Of a stretch of DNA of 18,886 bases, positions 2,545-17,554 are shown piece after piece. Made by a program: the position numbers and the translations under genes. How positions within the stretch are numbered: the stretch's first letter is position 1; every line of letters starts with the position of its first letter. The notes under the pieces are model-generated. The model was not told the DNA's origin. It was given only the letters and a program-made list of their open reading frames with translations, and ran no database searches. Source of the stretch: a bacterium (lineage in GTDB: Bacteria > Patescibacteriota > Microgenomatia > Levybacterales > UBA12049); assembly GCA_021852095.1 (NCBI GenBank), contig JAJZOC010000045.1, positions 1 through 18,886 of the forward strand, read 5' to 3'.

Positions 2545-3084
2545 TTAATTGTTTTCCGGTTCAGGCGGAAGAAATTCTTCTCCCCCGCTATTATCAACTT
2601 GCTTGTTAGGAACAGCTTTGAGCCATTCTATGTATGTACAGCCGGTCGCAGTACGTTTCGCGCTATCCCAACCTGCGGTCGAGCATTTTTTCATCCTTTT
2701 ACCTGCGTTCGTAGTAAAAAGCACCAACGGTTTACCGCACTTTGGGCACTCTTCATCGGTTTTCTCTGTTGTTCCGTTAATCCATTCTACATAATCGCAT
2801 CCTATTACCTTTTTTGTTTCCTTGTCCCAGACACCAGTTGAGCACTTCTTCATTTTTTTACCAAAGCGCGTAAATTGCACAACAAGAGGAGCTCCGCATT
2901 TGGGACATTTTTCATCCAGAGGTTGAGGCGGAACTTCTAACCATTTTATATAATTACATCCTTCGTTCTGTCTTGTTTCTTTATTCCAGCTCCCTTTAGA
3001 ACAACGCTGGAGTCTTCGTCCTGTGGCAGTTTCTGTTATTGGATTAAGTATAGATCCGCATTTGGGACACACATCTTCATTCAT
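2545..3084 (-). CDS. Stand-alone protein of three topoisomerase-type zinc ribbons
   Basis: This 179-residue protein consists of three tandem repeats of about 50 residues, each reading CPKCG, then about 18 residues, a conserved (K/R)CS, then about 14 residues, GC-x-Y-(I/V)-(E/K)-W. The four cysteines per repeat match the C4 zinc finger found at the C-terminus of bacterial topoisomerase I (zf-C4_Topoisom), but no topoisomerase catalytic domain is present. The tail (about 165-179) is acidic and proline-rich. Such ribbons bind single-stranded nucleic acid in TopA, so a DNA- or RNA-binding role is likely; the target is unknown. The ATG at 3084 has a good Shine-Dalgarno, GGAG, about 9 bases upstream. 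It sits 14 bp before obg in the same direction, suggesting one transcript. Confidence 0.85.
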   Translation of the reverse strand: MNEDVCPKCGSILNPITETATGRRLQRCSKGSWNKETRQNEGCNYIKWLEVPPQPLDEKCPKCGAPLVVQFTRFGKKMKKCSTGVWDKETKKVIGCDYVEWINGTTEKTDEECPKCGKPLVLFTTNAGKRMKKCSTAGWDSAKRTATGCTYIEWLKAVPNKQVDNSGGEEFLPPEPENN

Positions 3085-3159: not shown

Positions 3160-4068
3160 TTAGTTGCCTGTTTGATTAAACGGCGAATATCTCTTAAAAA
3201 GAAGGGGGAATTTTTCTATGCCTAGCTCTAGTATATTTTTTTTCGCACAAATTTGTTTTAACTGGGCAATATCCGCCGGCGAAGCGCTTATGGTTCTTGT
3301 TGTATACGGATACATGATGGCGTTTGGATCCTGTTCGTGCTGCATTCCAAGCGAGTGTCCCAATTCATGCGCTAAAGTGTGTATTAGTTCATTATGATTC
3401 GTGTCAAAATAAACCGTTATCGTATCAGCATTAGGATCATATAAACCCTCTTCCGGTTTAAGAGAAAGCGCATTATTAAATGTATTTATTGTATTGTTTA
3501 ACTCGCTGACTTTTTGGTTATATTGATTTGTGGAAATATTTAGCCTATCCGCGAGTTGATTAAGTTGGTCTGCTTCATTTTTAAGATTCTGCTGTTCTGA
3601 TTTTAGTTTATCATAAACATCCTGCGGTGCTCCCCCTTTGGCATTCCACATATTAACTTGATTGTTAAAACTGCTAAGTTTTTGCTGAAAATCTTGAGAC
3701 AACATTTCATACTGCTGGACTTCTGGATTTATAGACTGCTTACCGCTCTGTACCTGATTTTTCAGATTATTTATCTGATTATCCAAAGCCTGTCTCTGAT
3801 CGAATACAAGACTTATTTTTAGGTTCGCCTGCCGGTTATATTTAAATAAAGCTTTACCGTAGGCATTTCGCCAAATATTCGTAGCTTCTTTTATATCCGC
3901 CAGAAATGCACTATCTGTTATATTAAATCTTGGATCAACTGTTCCAAGACTATACTCAATCGGCGTGTCGCAGGGAGACACATACAGAAAATTATCCGCA
4001 TAACTTATTATCTGTTTGTTAAAAATAATTATGCCCGCAATCAGTAAAAGAAAAACAAATTTTTTCAT
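3160..4068 (-). CDS. Secreted or membrane-anchored matrixin-like zinc metalloprotease with coiled-coil insert
   Basis: The N-terminus (MKKFVFLLLIAGIIIF) is a signal peptide or anchor, so the protein acts outside the membrane. The zinc site is HELGHSLGMQH at 234-244, the extended HExxHxxGxxH of metzincins, followed by a Met-turn candidate IMYPY at 251-255, as in matrixins and related M10/M57-type peptidases. The catalytic fold starts around residue 37 (IEYSLGTVDPRF) and is interrupted by about 100 Gln/Asn-rich, heptad-like residues (95-200), predicted to be a coiled-coil hairpin, before the motif. There is no obvious cysteine-switch propeptide. ATG at 4068 begins a convincing signal sequence. 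It lies 75 bp upstream of the zinc-ribbon gene on the same strand; co-transcription is possible but not shown. The substrate is unknown. Confidence 0.85.
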   Translation of the reverse strand: MKKFVFLLLIAGIIIFNKQIISYADNFLYVSPCDTPIEYSLGTVDPRFNITDSAFLADIKEATNIWRNAYGKALFKYNRQANLKISLVFDQRQALDNQINNLKNQVQSGKQSINPEVQQYEMLSQDFQQKLSSFNNQVNMWNAKGGAPQDVYDKLKSEQQNLKNEADQLNQLADRLNISTNQYNQKVSELNNTINTFNNALSLKPEEGLYDPNADTITVYFDTNHNELIHTLAHELGHSLGMQHEQDPNAIMYPYTTRTISASPADIAQLKQICAKKNILELGIEKFPLLFKRYSPFNQTGN

Positions 4069-4221: not shown

Positions 4222-5502
4222 CTAACTTTTTATCTTGCCATATTGTCTCCATGGATGATCTGCCGAGGGTTGCCAATTTAGTTTATGCCTTGTAAGGATT
4301 ATTGGTTGTCTGGAAATCTTTTTAGGTTTTTCCGGTAAGATTGTGTAATTAAGGTAAAGTTTTTGTAAGCTAAAATGGATTGTACCGTTAAGCCGCTCTT
4401 CTACAATTACTATCTCTTTTGGCCTAACTGTTGTAGGTTGGATTTCAGCTAATTGATACCAGTTGTTTTTAAACTGGATAGTGAAATCATTGTTAATTTT
4501 TCTTGTTGATTGGATGGAGAAAATACTAGTTAAGTTATTTTTATCAGTTTCAGAAAGTGGTTTATGAAGATTCCCTTCTTTTGCGGGAATAACAGAAAAT
4601 TTATTGTTAAATGCCGGAAGAAAAACATTTTCTAAAAAGATATTTGCCTGAGTTGGTGTATTAATCTTTGCCAGCCTCATTTCCTTAACCAGCCTGTCTT
4701 GTAAGGTTTGAAACAGCCTTTCAATCCTGCCTTTGGCTTCTGGTGAATGGGCAGTAATCAATTGGATTCCTAAAGTTTGCATAGTCCTTTGGAACTGGGT
4801 TAAAAGATCACTGTTGTCAACTGCTGCTTTATGATTAATTTTGTAAGTACTAAATTTATCCAGATAAATACTAATTGGTTTTCCGTGTTTGAGGATATAT
4901 TCTTTCCAGAAGGTAAAAACCGCAATTACTCCTTCATTGGCAGCAAAAGCGGCTTTTGTTATCTTGCCGGTTGCATCATCAATTGAGGCAAGTAAACAGG
5001 TCTCCAAAGAGTCCCCATTTTTATCTAAAAGCCTGTTTTCAAACCAGAGATGGTAAGAACCATCAAATTGCTCCATCTCTCCAAAGTAGTCTTTTCTGGG
5101 TCTCCAGGATTTGTACTTTACTGCTTTTTGCTTACGTGATTTCCATAGTCCTGTTTCTATCATCCATAATCTTGTTGTCTCTGGACTAATCGCAATAGCA
5201 TAGTTTTCCTCAAGTTTTTCTGTCGCAAATGTTGGCTTAAAATCAAAGTAGGTTTCTTTGATAGCTGTAATTGCTTTTTTCTTCACCCCCAAATCAATAT
5301 GATGATTTCCAGGTTTGCCTTTTAACTTATGGACAGTGGCAGATACGCCTTCTTCTCTTACCGCAATTTTGAGTCTTCTAACCTGACGGGTAGAAATACC
5401 AAGAAGCTTAGCAGCTAATCCTGGTTTTATTTCTTTTTTAAGAACCTTTGTGATAACATCAAATTTATATTGTTCTTCGGAAGAATGAATAGCATCTGCC
5501 AT
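4222..5502 (-). CDS. Transposase, ISNCY family (ISDol1/IS1202-like), copy 1
   Basis: A DDE transposase of about 426 residues. An N-terminal helix-turn-helix (KPGLAAKLLGISTRQVRRLK) is followed by an rve-type catalytic core with acidic residues recognisable in EQFDGSYHLWFE, SIYLDKFSTYK and AKGRIERLFQTLQDR. The pattern 'H/NSPxAKGRxERxFxTLQDRLVKEMRL' is typical of the ISNCY group. The C-terminal beta region (NDFTIQFKNNWYQL) is also conserved. I chose ATG at 5502; an in-frame TTG at 5511 would add three residues, and neither has a Shine-Dalgarno. No frameshift or stop is visible and the catalytic residues are present, so it may be active. By eye it is roughly two-thirds identical to the neighbouring copy. 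Confidence 0.92.
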   Translation of the reverse strand: MADAIHSSEEQYKFDVITKVLKKEIKPGLAAKLLGISTRQVRRLKIAVREEGVSATVHKLKGKPGNHHIDLGVKKKAITAIKETYFDFKPTFATEKLEENYAIAISPETTRLWMIETGLWKSRKQKAVKYKSWRPRKDYFGEMEQFDGSYHLWFENRLLDKNGDSLETCLLASIDDATGKITKAAFAANEGVIAVFTFWKEYILKHGKPISIYLDKFSTYKINHKAAVDNSDLLTQFQRTMQTLGIQLITAHSPEAKGRIERLFQTLQDRLVKEMRLAKINTPTQANIFLENVFLPAFNNKFSVIPAKEGNLHKPLSETDKNNLTSIFSIQSTRKINNDFTIQFKNNWYQLAEIQPTTVRPKEIVIVEERLNGTIHFSLQKLYLNYTILPEKPKKISRQPIILTRHKLNWQPSADHPWRQYGKIKS

Positions 5503-5560
5503 AACATACAAAAAGTAGCAGGCAGTGTTTTACACTGTAGCATTTTCTTGATTTTAAAAA

Positions 5561-5653: not shown

Positions 5654-6919
5654 TTAGCATTGTTGTTTAAATGCTTTTCTCCATGGGTGATTTGCCGACG
5701 GTTTCCAATTAAGTTTGTGAGTTGTTAGAATTAACGGGTGTTTGTTTGTCTTTTTTGGTCTTTCAGGTAACAGGACATAGTTAAGATATTTGTCTCTTAA
5801 AGAAAAACGTACTGTCTTATCAAGCCATTCTTCTACGAGTACCCTGTTTTTAGCTCTTACTGTTATTGGCTGAAGTTCCATTAACTGATACCAGTTGTTT
5901 TTAAACTGAATTGTGAAATCATTGTTGACTTGTCTTTTGGATTGAATAGAAAAGACGCGGTTTAGATTCTTTTTATCAGTCTCTGATAGAATCTTATGAA
6001 CATTTCCGTCTTTTACCGCAATAACAGCAAATCTTCTGTTAAATTTTGGCAGAAAAACAACTTTCAGGAATATATTTGCCTCCTCCGGCGTATTGATACC
6101 AGCTAGTCTCATTTCTTTTATCAGTCTGTCCTGAAGGGTTTTAAAAAGCCGCTCTATTCTTCCTTTTGCCTGCGGTGAATTAGCGGGGATAAGATGAATA
6201 TCTAAGTCCCTTGACGCTCTTTGAAACTGTGTTAAAAGATCATAATTATCAACTGCCGATTTATGGTTAATTTTATAGGTTGAGAATTTATCAAGATAGA
6301 TACTTACGGGTTTGCCAAGCTCCAAAACATACTCTTTCCAGAAGTTAAATACAGCCGTCACTCCTTCATTGGCGGAAAAGGAAGCTTTGGTAATTTTTCC
6401 TGTTGCATCGTCAATACTGGCTAACAAACAAACTTCGATTGGATTACCATTTCTATCAACTAACCTATTCTCAAACCATAAGTGGTAGGAGCCGTCAAAC
6501 TGCTGTAATTCTCCGTAATATTCTTTTCTGGGACGCCATGAGCGGTAAGTGTCCTGCTTTTGTTTTCGTATTCTCCACAAATCTTTTTCTGCCATCCACC
6601 GCCGCAGTGTCTGTGGATGAACAGAAAGATGTTCGTTTTCAGCTAATTTCTCCGCTGCAAACGCAGGTTTAAAATCACTATATTTTTCCCTAACAATCTC
6701 AAGAGCTTTCTTTTTCAACGTTTCGTTAAGACAATGGTTACTTTTTCTCCCCTTCAATTTATGCACAACTGCTTTTTCTCCGTCATCAAGAATTGCATAC
6801 TTAAGTCTTCTTATCTGATGGGTAGAGATACCAAGAAGTTTGGCTGCCAATCCAGGCTTTATTTCCTTATTGATTATCTTTGTGATAATCTCAAATTTAT
6901 ATTGCTCTTTTGAAGTCAT
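5654..6919 (-). CDS. Transposase, ISNCY family (ISDol1/IS1202-like), copy 2
   Basis: A 421-residue DDE transposase homologous to copy 1 over its whole length: helix-turn-helix KPGLAAKLLGISTHQIRRLK, catalytic motifs QQFDGSYHLWFE, SIYLDKFSTYK and AKGRIERLFKTLQDR, and the same C-terminal region NDFTIQFKNNWYQL. The ATG at 6919 (MTSKEQYKF) aligns with the start region of copy 1; no Shine-Dalgarno is visible. The reading frame is intact. Many scattered substitutions show the two copies are not a recent duplication of each other but two related elements, or a very old pair. Confidence 0.93.
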   Translation of the reverse strand: MTSKEQYKFEIITKIINKEIKPGLAAKLLGISTHQIRRLKYAILDDGEKAVVHKLKGRKSNHCLNETLKKKALEIVREKYSDFKPAFAAEKLAENEHLSVHPQTLRRWMAEKDLWRIRKQKQDTYRSWRPRKEYYGELQQFDGSYHLWFENRLVDRNGNPIEVCLLASIDDATGKITKASFSANEGVTAVFNFWKEYVLELGKPVSIYLDKFSTYKINHKSAVDNYDLLTQFQRASRDLDIHLIPANSPQAKGRIERLFKTLQDRLIKEMRLAGINTPEEANIFLKVVFLPKFNRRFAVIAVKDGNVHKILSETDKKNLNRVFSIQSKRQVNNDFTIQFKNNWYQLMELQPITVRAKNRVLVEEWLDKTVRFSLRDKYLNYVLLPERPKKTNKHPLILTTHKLNWKPSANHPWRKAFKQQC

Positions 6920-14861: not shown

Positions 14862-15191
14862 ATGTTTTATCTAAAACTTCCTTTTGTTTTTATCAAGTTC
14901 TGGTTTATGGAATGCCCAAGGGGAATTTTTGCCTTTTTTACCTCTTTGAATGCTTCTTTCTTAAGGCTTTTTTCTCTGCCCATCTTGGTAAAAACCTATT
15001 TTAAGCCCTGGAAGAATGAGTACAGACAAGGCTTGGTGGGATTTTCCATCGGCATGGGCATGTTTGTTAAAACCTTTGTTATCTTAACAGATATTATTTT
15101 ATTTTTTATATTGATAATATTTGAGGCGATTTTCATGTTAGGCTTCCTACTACTGCCAATCATAGCAGTATTTTTACTATTTGAGGGATAA
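14862..15191 (+). CDS. Small membrane protein, partner candidate of the Clp-like ATPase
   Basis: 109 residues: an N-terminal hydrophobic stretch (about 4-30), a short basic segment LVKTYFKPWKNEYRQGLVGF (43-62), then two strong helices (about 64-82 and 84-107). I do not recognise a characterised family. Its stop at 15189-15191 is five bases before the ATG of the downstream AAA+ gene, and the end of this gene supplies GAGGGA as the Shine-Dalgarno of that gene. The two are thus almost certainly one operon. Because the ATPase is itself membrane-anchored, this protein could be its membrane partner or adaptor; that is inference from position and topology only. Confidence 0.75.
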   Translation: MFYLKLPFVFIKFWFMECPRGIFAFFTSLNASFLRLFSLPILVKTYFKPWKNEYRQGLVGFSIGMGMFVKTFVILTDIILFFILIIFEAIFMLGFLLLPIIAVFLLFEG

Positions 15192-15196
15192 GATTA

Positions 15197-17554
15197 ATGG
15201 AAGAGTACGCAAGAATATATTATATCTATAAAACTCCTGGACTAAAGCTCTTAAGGCTGACTGTTCTTGTGGTATTTTTTATTACCATTGTTACAACTTT
15301 TGAGAAGTATTATACGCCTTCTACAGCTATTGCTTTACTAATATTTTTTGCTATGTGGGAGGTCTTTTTCTTCTTTAAGATTTCTAGAATGAAACCAAAA
15401 AGCCTGGTGACTCGTAACAATGGTGAAAACATATACGAATCTTTTACTCTAGACGCTCTATCCGTATTCATAATGAGAGAAAACGTAATACCTATTGTCA
15501 AAAGTCTTCTCCGAAAACCCAACATTAAATTCATACTGAAAAAAGCAAATATACAGATTAGGGAAATTAAATTCACGGATGCAGCAAAAGATGAAATAGC
15601 AAAACTGGCTTTTGATCTTGCCAAAAACAACAATTGTTTATTTGTAACAACTAGCGACCTATTCTGCGCATATATTTTATATACAGAACCTCAGACGAGA
15701 TTATTATTTTCCAAAGAACTAAAAGAGAAAGATTTTTTACATATTTTGTATTGGGCGCATAGTAAATTTGTTTTGGAAGAACAAAAAAAACCTATCAGAA
15801 TAAGGTTCTCCGAAGAAGGAATAGGAGAAAATTGGGTCTATGGCTGGACTCTAGAAACGAAGAAATACACTAATGACATTACAGCGCAGGTATTAAAAGA
15901 ACGGCCTGTTTTAGTAGGAAGAGATACTCAATATAAAGAAGTTATAGAAGCTCTTATGGATACTGAAAAAAACAGTACAGTCTTAGTAGGTAATCCCGGC
16001 GTTGGTAAAACAGCCATGATAAAATATCTGGCTTTTGAGAGCTTTGTCGGAAATACAAAAGGAACATTAAAACATAAACGTTTTTTGGAACTTATGGTAA
16101 GTGTGCTTCTTGCCGGTACTTCAAACCAAGGAGAATTACAAACAAGACTAACAAATATTATGGAAGAAATATCCCATGCCGGAAATGTTATTTTGTATAT
16201 TCCTAAATTGGAAGATATTCTCGGGTCAGAATCTCTAAGTCTTAATCTCTCCTCATCCCTTATGCCTTATGTCAGAGACGGAAAAATAAATATAATTGCA
16301 ACTTCTACTCCTTCTAATTATAAAACATACATCGAGCCCATGCTGGATTTTATTCAGTTTTTTGATGTTATAAAACTGAATGATCCGGATATGGACTCCG
16401 CAATTCAAATGGTCATGGAAAAAGCTTCTCAGATAGAAAAAGCATATAAAATTTCTATAACGTATAAAGCGGTAGAGTCTTCTGTCATGTACGCAAATCG
16501 ATACTTAAGAGATAAATCTCTGCCCGGTTCAGCCGTTACGTTACTCAATGAAACTGCGAACAGTGCTATCCTTACCCAAAAAAAAATTATTGATAAAGAG
16601 GACGTAATTGCCAAAATCGAAGAAGCAATACATGTTCAGATTGATTCACCAAATAAGGAAGAAACAGAGTTATTACTTCATTTCGAAGATAAAATGCACA
16701 AAAAAATAGTTGGCCAAGAAGAAGCAGTAGTCTCTATTGCCACAGCTTTAAGAAGACTCCGAAGCGGCATAACAAGAAAGGATAAACCAATCTCTTTCTT
16801 ATTTTTAGGTCCAACGGGGGTTGGAAAAACAGAGACCGCAAAAACTCTAGCCAATTTATATTTTAAAGAGGACAACAGCATGATTAGAATTGATATGAGC
16901 GAATATAATACCCAAGATTCTGTAAAACGTATTATTGACGGCGAATTAACACAAACTATTTATGAACATCCCTTTTCTTTAATCCTACTGGATGAGTTTG
17001 AAAAAGCACATCCTGATATCCTTGATCTGTTCCTGCAGGTTTTAGACGACGGAAGGCTTACCAACAGCCGCGGCAAAACAGCATCTTTTTTGGACGCCAT
17101 CATTATTGCTACTTCCAACGCCGGATCAGAATTAATTAGAGAGCAACTAAAAAACGAACAAAAAGAGATCGATTCGTTTTCTAAAAAACTGCTTGATACT
17201 CTACAAGAAAAGGGAATATTTAAACCCGAACTTTTAAACAGATTTGACAGCATAGTAATATTTAAACCTCTAGGACAAAAAGAAATTTATGAAATTACGG
17301 GACTTCTTCTAACAAAGATTGTACAAAAGCTTAAAGAAGAAGATATAAATGTATTTTTTGACGAAAAAATTAGACATAAAATAGCGCTGGAAGGGTTTAA
17401 TGAAGAATTTGGAGCAAGACCTCTTCGCCGCTTTATTCAAAATAATATAGAAAACGCCTTGGCTCAAAAAATACTTGCTTCGGAAATAACCAGAGGAAAT
17501 ACGGTAATGGTATCAACAGACACTAACAACAATATTACCTTCTCTATAAATTAG
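15197..17554 (+). CDS. Membrane-anchored Clp-like tandem AAA+ protein with inactive first module and no pore loop
   Basis: 785 residues. Two membrane helices (20-34 and 43-61) are followed by a degenerate Clp N-domain (about 125-190) and two AAA+ modules. D1 keeps Walker A GNPGVGKT (265-272), but Walker B reads VILYIPKLED (331-340), with Pro-Lys where Asp-Glu belongs. The arginine-finger segment 'ERRF' reads FIQF, and the pore loop AGTKYRGE reads AGTSNQGE. D2 has Walker A GPTGVGKT (538-545), Walker B SLILLDE (594-600), sensor 1 IATSNAGS, arginine finger LLNRFD (679-684) and sensor 2 GARPLRR (739-745). Where ClpB/ClpC carry about 11 residues including the GYVG pore loop, D2 runs directly from DSVKRII to DGELTQ (574-586). 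There is no ClpB middle domain and no evident ClpP-binding IGF/IGL loop. The ATG has GAGGGA upstream. ATP hydrolysis by D2 is likely; classical threading is doubtful. Confidence 0.92.
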   Translation: MEEYARIYYIYKTPGLKLLRLTVLVVFFITIVTTFEKYYTPSTAIALLIFFAMWEVFFFFKISRMKPKSLVTRNNGENIYESFTLDALSVFIMRENVIPIVKSLLRKPNIKFILKKANIQIREIKFTDAAKDEIAKLAFDLAKNNNCLFVTTSDLFCAYILYTEPQTRLLFSKELKEKDFLHILYWAHSKFVLEEQKKPIRIRFSEEGIGENWVYGWTLETKKYTNDITAQVLKERPVLVGRDTQYKEVIEALMDTEKNSTVLVGNPGVGKTAMIKYLAFESFVGNTKGTLKHKRFLELMVSVLLAGTSNQGELQTRLTNIMEEISHAGNVILYIPKLEDILGSESLSLNLSSSLMPYVRDGKINIIATSTPSNYKTYIEPMLDFIQFFDVIKLNDPDMDSAIQMVMEKASQIEKAYKISITYKAVESSVMYANRYLRDKSLPGSAVTLLNETANSAILTQKKIIDKEDVIAKIEEAIHVQIDSPNKEETELLLHFEDKMHKKIVGQEEAVVSIATALRRLRSGITRKDKPISFLFLGPTGVGKTETAKTLANLYFKEDNSMIRIDMSEYNTQDSVKRIIDGELTQTIYEHPFSLILLDEFEKAHPDILDLFLQVLDDGRLTNSRGKTASFLDAIIIATSNAGSELIREQLKNEQKEIDSFSKKLLDTLQEKGIFKPELLNRFDSIVIFKPLGQKEIYEITGLLLTKIVQKLKEEDINVFFDEKIRHKIALEGFNEEFGARPLRRFIQNNIENALAQKILASEITRGNTVMVSTDTNNNITFSIN

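Follow-up and report, generated by a model that had tools for sequence, protein, structure and literature searches.

Analysis of an 18,886-nucleotide (nt) stretch of DNA from a bacterium of the order Levybacterales, phylum Patescibacteriota (contig JAJZOC010000045.1, here termed the window), revealed a unit of two genes, P and A, that recurs across the phylum. Gene A encodes a membrane-anchored Clp/Hsp100 ATPase with two AAA+ rings (D1 and D2), and P, which encodes a small integral membrane protein, is positioned directly upstream of it. The partner gene and the two-gene unit go beyond an earlier note on this DNA, which had described A. We consider the chances somewhat better than even that A and P constitute one membrane complex, a non-threading Hsp100 ATPase for remodelling or quality control that resembles the eukaryotic torsins in its logic. 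What the analysis shows is which motifs A has kept and lost, that membrane helices are predicted, that the two genes form a unit recurring across the phylum, and that A is under purifying selection.

The P-A gene pair

The term own family denotes the taxonomic family of the window, of which 73 genomes were searched; no second genome of the window's genus is among these. Loci of the own family chosen by their A gene (the window and 38 of 56 others) provided 39 members. Matches to P added 36 loci (3 from the own family, 2 from a sister family of the same order, 11 from the class, and 20 from the phylum) and a further, family-spread set of 40 loci from 40 phylum or class genomes. A search with Escherichia coli ClpA added 11 more (12 of 20 were used, of which L239 was removed because it duplicates L226), which were counted as A members before the tree placed them there. 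The A family comprises 126 distinct members in total (39 + 36 + 40 + 11), a non-random sample because the class and phylum loci were picked via P or ClpA matches. The 26 controls were 19 paralogues B, 5 paralogues C, and ClpA and ClpB of E. coli.

The start codon of A is located 5 nt past the stop codon of P. Among all 115 loci chosen by A or P, the two genes were adjacent in 93 and fused in 21, and P was recovered as a weak match only in one (L148). A PWK-type membrane protein adjoining or fused with A was thus found by profile in 114/115 loci and by a weak search match in L148. In the A-chosen own-family loci, P was adjacent in 36 and fused to the N terminus of A in 3; the spacing ranged from -53 to 17 nt in 35 loci and was 125 nt in one, with a 4-nt overlap in 14/36. 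The 36 P-chosen loci comprised 28 adjacent and 7 fused pairs besides L148, and the 40 further P-chosen loci comprised 29 adjacent and 11 fused pairs. In 57 of 58 P loci from a collection of named records, some cut by a contig end, A came after P or was fused with it by coordinates; in the exception, L096, the sequence ends 162 bases past P. From the fusions and gene overlaps, we infer that P and A probably form a complex. A short fused A member (629 amino acids [aa]) at L181 lies tail-to-tail with genes that by eye resemble clpP and tig.

The structure of P was predicted to consist of helices only (predicted local distance difference test [pLDDT] score, 95): a helix of residues 2 to 36, a short helix of residues 39 to 44, a loop with KPWKNEYRQG, and a long helix of residues 56 to 107. 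The conserved motif is of the FS..LL.KT.F.PWK type. Searches for relatives gave Pfam matches for 0/47 P members and no match in NCBIfam, PHROGs, or plasmids; in the Protein Data Bank (PDB), no relative was found by sequence (best E, 0.048) or by fold (best E, 4.9).

A wide profile of P matched 220 of 379 Patescibacteria genomes, for which at least 90% completeness was asked, with one match per listed row; this figure counts P, not A. A narrow profile matched 70/379 genomes in another draw from the phylum (E <= 0.01) and 37/281 in the class, so that the true frequency of P may exceed 220/379. Of the 19 genomes whose ClpA-type locus was not interrupted, 17 also matched P, as counted from the tables. 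In view of the 220 genomes with P, the suggestion in the earlier note that the ATPase is specific to its lineage was too narrow.

Architecture of the AAA+ protein A

The frame and coordinates of the A open reading frame (ORF) checked out; the ORF is in-frame and has no internal stop. Analysis of the protein with Pfam revealed AAA_lid_9 (residues 400 to 484), AAA_2 (530 to 686), and ClpB_D2-small (692 to 772) matches, the latter two of which, together with the full set of D2 catalytic motifs, assign A to the Clp/Hsp100 superfamily. Among the 25 NCBIfam families listed, no cut-off was reached (ClpB equivalog, 430 bits with a cut-off of 1232; ClpA, 386 with a cut-off of 993). Among proteins of solved structure, ClpC and ClpB are the nearest to A in sequence, with ClpC as the best PDB sequence match. 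An AlphaFold2 (AF2) monomer model of window A (mean pLDDT, 87.4; 52 aligned sequences) has the two-ring fold of the ClpC/ClpB type: in a Foldseek search, the best E was 1.1e-52, and the 50 PDB matches listed were ClpC, ClpC1, or ClpB. The 50 matches listed from a viral structure library contained generic Clp and AAA matches, and a plasmid record search returned Clp-type matches, each below 60% identity. No second full copy of A was found in the window's genome (0.66 Mb, 57% complete).

Two added membrane helices, as claimed previously, were borne out by hydropathy (residues 13 to 37 and 40 to 63) and by the AF2 model (14 to 36 and 42 to 62); at least one membrane-type segment was present within the first 200 residues in 125/127 rows. 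The likeness of the following domain to a Clp N-domain was judged by eye, with no Pfam Clp_N match. At L241 and L249, the N terminus opens with CxxC pairs resembling a zinc ribbon, before the membrane region. The M-domain is absent from A, in which about 10 residues separate the matched stretches versus about 70 in ClpC. A ClpP-docking tripeptide of the IGF/IGL type is absent from window A according to a regular expression that finds the IGL of E. coli ClpA; the expression matched 3/126 A members (2 marginal, 1 artefact) and 0/19 paralogues B. A protease domain was not matched by Pfam.

The D2 ring retains the ATPase motifs and has lost the pore aromatic

Walker A, Walker B, sensor 1, the arginine finger, and sensor 2 of D2 were all located in window A, as the earlier note had read them, and all five are present in 126/126 A members. 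The member at L206 (1872-5630, +) has a large insert in the D2 Walker A motif with ends that appear intein-like by eye.

The aromatic D2 pore loop, G-Y-V-G in threading unfoldases, is deleted in the window. In a phmmer alignment of window A with ClpC, the gap falls at the GYVG loop. Between DMSEY and Walker B, window A is 29 residues long versus 40 in 19/19 paralogues B, which corresponds to 11 missing residues. The AF2 model has a single unbroken helix, residues 573 to 590, over the missing loop (block means, 85 and 82), which indicates that the first D2 pore loop is gone in the model. Across the A family, the same stretch ranges from 27 to 41 residues (124 measured members), with the window near the short end. 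Own-family loops are mostly of the GAPPGxGDERG kind, acidic and non-aromatic, and several are shortened. At the D2 Tyr position, 124/126 members have a non-aromatic residue or a gap and 2 have an aromatic (Tyr in L225, Phe in L249), compared to 26/26 controls with an aromatic. A regular expression for the aromatic gave 3 matches, but the match in L188 precedes the loop, and the number used here is the 2 counted in the alignment column. Judged by these alignments, the fixed trait of the family is the aromatic loss, not the loop deletion, and the full deletion in the window is an extreme. The earlier claim of a clean loss of the stretch equivalent to GAPPGYVGYE thus stands for the window, whereas only the loss of the aromatic extends to the family. 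Near-canonical D2 loops occur at L225 (GYPGYEEGG), L183 (GQAGYQEGG), L235 (GQVGYEEGG), and L249 (GFAGAERGG), and these members are possible intermediates of pore loss.

Losses in the D1 ring

The features previously read in D1 were all recovered: Walker A is retained as GNPGVGKT, Pro-Lys replaces the Walker B Asp-Glu found in 26/26 Clp controls, FIQFF occupies the finger region where the controls have ERRF-type residues, and Asn310 sits in the pore-loop Tyr column. Window A therefore lacks the active D1 of threading unfoldases, which is characterized by the Walker B Asp-Glu and arginine fingers. The Asp-Glu pair was found in 0/39 own-family members and 22/126 members overall, and D1 loss is progressive across the A family. 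Tyr, Phe, or Trp occurs at the D1 pore position in 0/126 A members, although Tyr or Phe occurs there in only 6/26 controls.

Conservation, phylogeny, and selection

Some match to A was found in 64/73 own-family genomes and a match with E <= 1e-150 in 57/73; in genomes of at least 90% completeness and at most 5% contamination, the latter number was 38/42. The 39 own-family members have the D2 motifs in 39/39 cases, a D2 pore aromatic in 0/39, and the D1 Asp-Glu in 0/39, and the further own-family loci L158 to L160 likewise lack the D2 aromatic and the D1 Asp-Glu. In a D2 tree built quickly from 152 rows, a single branch separated all 126 members from the rest (Shimodaira-Hasegawa-like approximate likelihood ratio test, 99), and a D1+D2 tree built more carefully from 50 rows likewise set the 38 sampled members apart (99/97). 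The homologue comparison that the earlier note had proposed accordingly gave fixed losses in the own family. Relatives retaining GYVG and the D1 Walker B, which the note had named as a sign of local degeneration, were not found there (0/39); outside it, the D2 aromatic persists in 2/126 and the D1 Asp-Glu in 22/126 members.

In the D2 tree, L183, L225, L235, L238, and L249, which have near-canonical loops, adjoin the canonical proteins together with some others (fork support, 86). This position suggests that pore loss came after membrane anchoring, an order that is not well supported.

The ratio of nonsynonymous to synonymous substitution rates (dN/dS) ranged from 0.047 to 0.192 by domain in six own-family pairs with unsaturated dS. 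For the pore segment, which is noisy at 19 window codons, it was 0.012 to 0.052 in five of six own-family pairs, indicating that the aromatic-free loop itself is constrained. Purifying selection on A is strong, the aromatic-free loop included.

TABLE 1 Features of the P-A pair in the window
Feature	Coordinates	Strand	Basis or remark
Partner gene P, 109-aa integral membrane protein	14862..15191	+	Directly upstream of A
AAA+ gene A, 785-aa membrane-anchored Clp/Hsp100 ATPase	15197..17554	+	Two AAA+ rings
Membrane hairpin of A, N-terminal (residues 13-63)	15233..15385	+	Hydropathy, AF2 helices
N-domain of A (residues 66-204), helical, divergent	15392..15808	+	AF2 helices; low conservation
D1 ring domain (residues 236-485)	15902..16651	+	Alignment to ClpC D1; AAA_lid_9 match 400-484
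D1 Walker A GNPGVGKT, kept (residues 265-272)	15989..16012	+	Motif reading
Pro336-Lys337 replacing D1 Walker B Asp-Glu	16202..16207	+	Alignment, motif reading
D2 ring domain (residues 486-775), ATPase motifs retained	16652..17521	+	AAA_2, ClpB_D2-small; motifs 126/126
D2 Walker A GPTGVGKT (538-545)	16808..16831	+	Motif reading
Junction of 11-residue D2 pore-loop deletion (residues 579-583)	16931..16945	+	phmmer alignment, length count, AF2
D2 Walker B ILLDEFEK (596-603)	16982..17005	+	Motif reading
D2 sensor 1 ATSNAG (638-643)	17108..17125	+	Motif reading
D2 arginine finger PELLNRFD (NRFD, 681-684)	17225..17248	+	Motif reading
D2 sensor 2 GARPLRR (GAR, 739-741)	17411..17431	+	Motif reading

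Genomic neighbourhood

In Levybacteria, the P-A pair is often located downstream of hrcA-grpE-dnaK-dnaJ, as identified with Pfam. A same-strand upstream dnaJ was found in 25/39 own-family loci (within 1.5 kb in 9) and dnaK in 21/39; in L032, the hrcA-grpE-dnaK-dnaJ genes are on the opposite strand. In a sister family of the same order, dnaJ is just upstream too (L155, L157). On the 3' side of the pair, nusA was found in 34/39 own-family loci, followed by infB, rpsO, and pnp, which were identified by eye. The link to chaperone genes is a lead for a role in proteostasis, possibly block synteny, and no proof. Scans for promoters and terminators gave results near chance.

Paralogue B was present in 19/40 own-family loci fetched, in 17 on the same contig as A. 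At L040:13310-18490, L047:2167-9588, and similar Levybacteria loci, B (842 to 1433 aa, some with long C termini) lies beside a type IV secretion system (T4SS)-type pilin or large membrane protein and a subtilase. In other lineages, neighbours vary. Pfam scans covered a chosen 80 of 133 neighbour proteins, and the commonest of the families listed (25 of 76), MraZ and group 1 glycosyltransferases, reached 4/80 each. No phylum-wide operon function emerged from these neighbours, as no Pfam family among those listed recurs beyond 4/80.

In the window, the pair is flanked by a 119-aa ORF and tatD (opposite strand) upstream and by rpoD downstream. Elsewhere in the window, the 3' end of an ORF that appears recombinase-like by eye (2-613) overlaps an opposite-strand tRNA-Lys (550-625), as at an integration site. 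Two related tandem same-strand ORFs of 429 and 421 aa (4222-5511 and 5654-6919) appear integrase/transposase-like by eye, 2545-3084 encodes a 179-aa protein of topoisomerase-type zinc ribbons with no topoisomerase domain match, and 3160-4068 encodes a metallopeptidase of the matrixin-like (M10) type whose central part carries a long insert.

Proposed mode of action and alternative explanations

In the mechanism that we propose, A would be a two-ring Hsp100 protein of ClpA-like layout, with neither M-domain nor ClpP-docking loop, that probably assembles as a hexamer; its own helical hairpin and P would together hold it in the cytoplasmic membrane. D1 would serve as a structural or nucleotide-binding ring, and D2 would be the ring that hydrolyses ATP. 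With no aromatic at the grip position of either ring, the ATP cycle would presumably not be spent on threading polypeptides; it would reshape the ring and the cargo bound to the N-domain, the membrane hairpin, or P. Substrates would be membrane or membrane-associated proteins. The interpretation of the earlier note is supported in part: A is a membrane-anchored Clp-type ATPase with a build that does not suit classical threading, and the trait is fixed. The role of the motor is an inference.

Several observations weigh against this mechanism. All 22 A members with the D1 Asp-Glu, as well as L225 and L249 with their D2 aromatics, lie outside the own family; such members suggest that early forms may have threaded. 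The D1 pore column of the ordinary paralogues B is His in 19/19, and because of this and the 6/26 count in the controls, the D1 pore loss is weak evidence that says less than the D2 loss. As paralogues B lack both the D1 aromatic and the ClpP-docking tripeptide, neither loss is special to A. The role in proteostasis has counterevidence as well: HrcA, GrpE, DnaK, or DnaJ matches were found in 0/71 loci outside the order, many with 1 to 2 kb upstream only; the window has no chaperone genes or nusA by the pair; and a CIRCE heat-shock site was found in none of 254 loci (exact pattern) and not in the window at 3 mismatches. P was not matched in 159/379 genomes of the phylum by the wide profile.

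Some of the same evidence would fit an A that still threads at the membrane, with a weak grip provided by non-aromatic or second pore loops and the chains passed to another partner. The DDGRLTD..G stretch of D2, which we take to be its second pore loop, is largely kept; L225 retains GYPGYEEGG and L249 GFAG; another aromatic, off the Tyr position, lies between loop start and Walker B in 51/126 members, and window A has Tyr589 near the end of the 573-590 helix; and the fold is ClpC/ClpB-like. The kept DDGRLTD..G stretch and the aromatics off the Tyr position, Tyr589 included, also speak against the non-threading mechanism. We regard this explanation as unlikely, though it deserves attention, given the non-aromatic residue or gap at the D2 Tyr position in nearly all members and the continuous predicted helix that replaces the window loop. 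The lack of a ClpP-docking tripeptide points in the same direction, with the reservation that paralogues B lack it too. Alternatively, A might be a regulatory or tethering subunit that joins paralogue B or C, both ordinary Clp ATPases, in mixed assemblies and brings them to the membrane. The presence of B, whose D2 and D1 Walker motifs are canonical, in 19/40 own-family loci and in 17 of these on the contig of A would agree with such a role. It is improbable in view of the full D2 site of A itself, arginine finger included, in every member; no B turned up in the genome of the window (57% complete), and none of the scanned neighbours outside the own family occurred in more than 4/80.

Similarly doubtful is a role of A as an ATPase that assembles or regulates an envelope machine, e.g., a T4SS or type IV pili. 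In some Levybacteria, the pair adjoins a block that encodes B and a large membrane protein and has a match to T4SS_pilin, and T4SS are widespread in Patescibacteria (excerpt of PMC12102498); however, the B block is on the contig of A in 17/39 own-family loci versus nusA downstream in 34/39, and in other lineages the neighbours of the pair are varied. Local degeneration, a sequencing error, or a pseudogene is hardly credible. The window loop is shorter than in most relatives, and the 73 genomes searched hold no second one of its genus, but the intact in-frame ORF, the orthologues at E <= 1e-150 in 57/73 own-family genomes, the dN/dS well below 1 in relatives, and the D1/D2 losses shared by members across the phylum largely contradict it. 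The full deletion in the window, unlike the aromatic loss, could be private.

Significance and relation to the literature

In a literature search outside subscription papers, preprints, and supplementary tables, no title or opening abstract concerned the A-P family. The pair thus looks undescribed, in the sense of not found in the literature searched. Neither "Clp" nor "AAA" occurs in the main texts of PMC12102498 and PMC10633639, and both terms were likewise absent from PMC6744442. ClpB and ClpC of a Saccharibacterium are mentioned in an excerpt of PMC10768705. Most of the protein families that are enriched in the phylum are poorly annotated as to function (excerpt of PMC6744442), and the P-A pair is probably a core membrane system in it; its hosts are tiny, mostly uncultured bacteria. 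Processive unfolding by Clp/HSP100 proteins is described as depending critically on their aromatic pore loops, which are conserved (excerpt of PMC5425593). A large, selected family without the aromatic grip and with the D2 engine represents a natural experiment on other uses of the ring, a question that the torsins also leave. The natural P-A fusions offer ready single-chain constructs for biochemistry.

Comparison with known systems

A shares with ClpA and ClpC the D1-D2 order, the D2 motifs, and the fold. ClpA has no M-domain, like A. Unlike both, A has a membrane hairpin and a membrane partner and lacks the D1 Walker B and fingers, the aromatic pore positions, and the ClpP-docking loop. Paralogues B and C are also two-ring Clp ATPases; they differ by GYVG or GYIG and the D1 Asp-Glu in 24/24 and lie on the opposite side of the tree. 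The disaggregases ClpB, Hsp104, and ClpG share the Hsp100 fold, and dnaK-dnaJ are near A in part of the Levybacteria; A differs by its membrane anchor and by the lack of an M-domain and of aromatic pore loops. FtsH and Bcs1 are AAA+ rings on N-terminal membrane helices, as is A; they belong to other AAA clades and have a single ring. A has no protease domain match.

The torsins are Clp/Hsp100 relatives without aromatic pore loops that are membrane-associated and controlled by cofactors, TorsinA by LAP1/LULL1, and the arginine finger is supplied by the cofactor, which has a degenerate AAA+ fold (excerpt of PMC5425593). In the features described there, A resembles them: it has no aromatic at the pore positions, is membrane-anchored, and has a membrane partner. 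It differs in that it has two AAA+ domains and provides the arginine finger itself, as NRFD in D2, whereas the torsin finger, according to the same excerpt, comes from the cofactor. P is a small helical membrane protein with no degenerate AAA+ fold, and the torsins reside in the eukaryotic endoplasmic reticulum versus a bacterial membrane for A. By its two rings, its own arginine finger, and a partner without the AAA+ fold, A is not a torsin. In a broader interpretation, which we hold tentatively and at somewhat less than even chances, the pair would represent a phylum-spanning, previously undescribed class of membrane machine of Patescibacteria, built from a pore-less Hsp100 of two rings and a dedicated integral membrane subunit. 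This convergent bacterial counterpart of the torsin-cofactor system would remodel membrane proteins or the membrane by changes in ring shape and would be maintained under strong selection in very small genomes.

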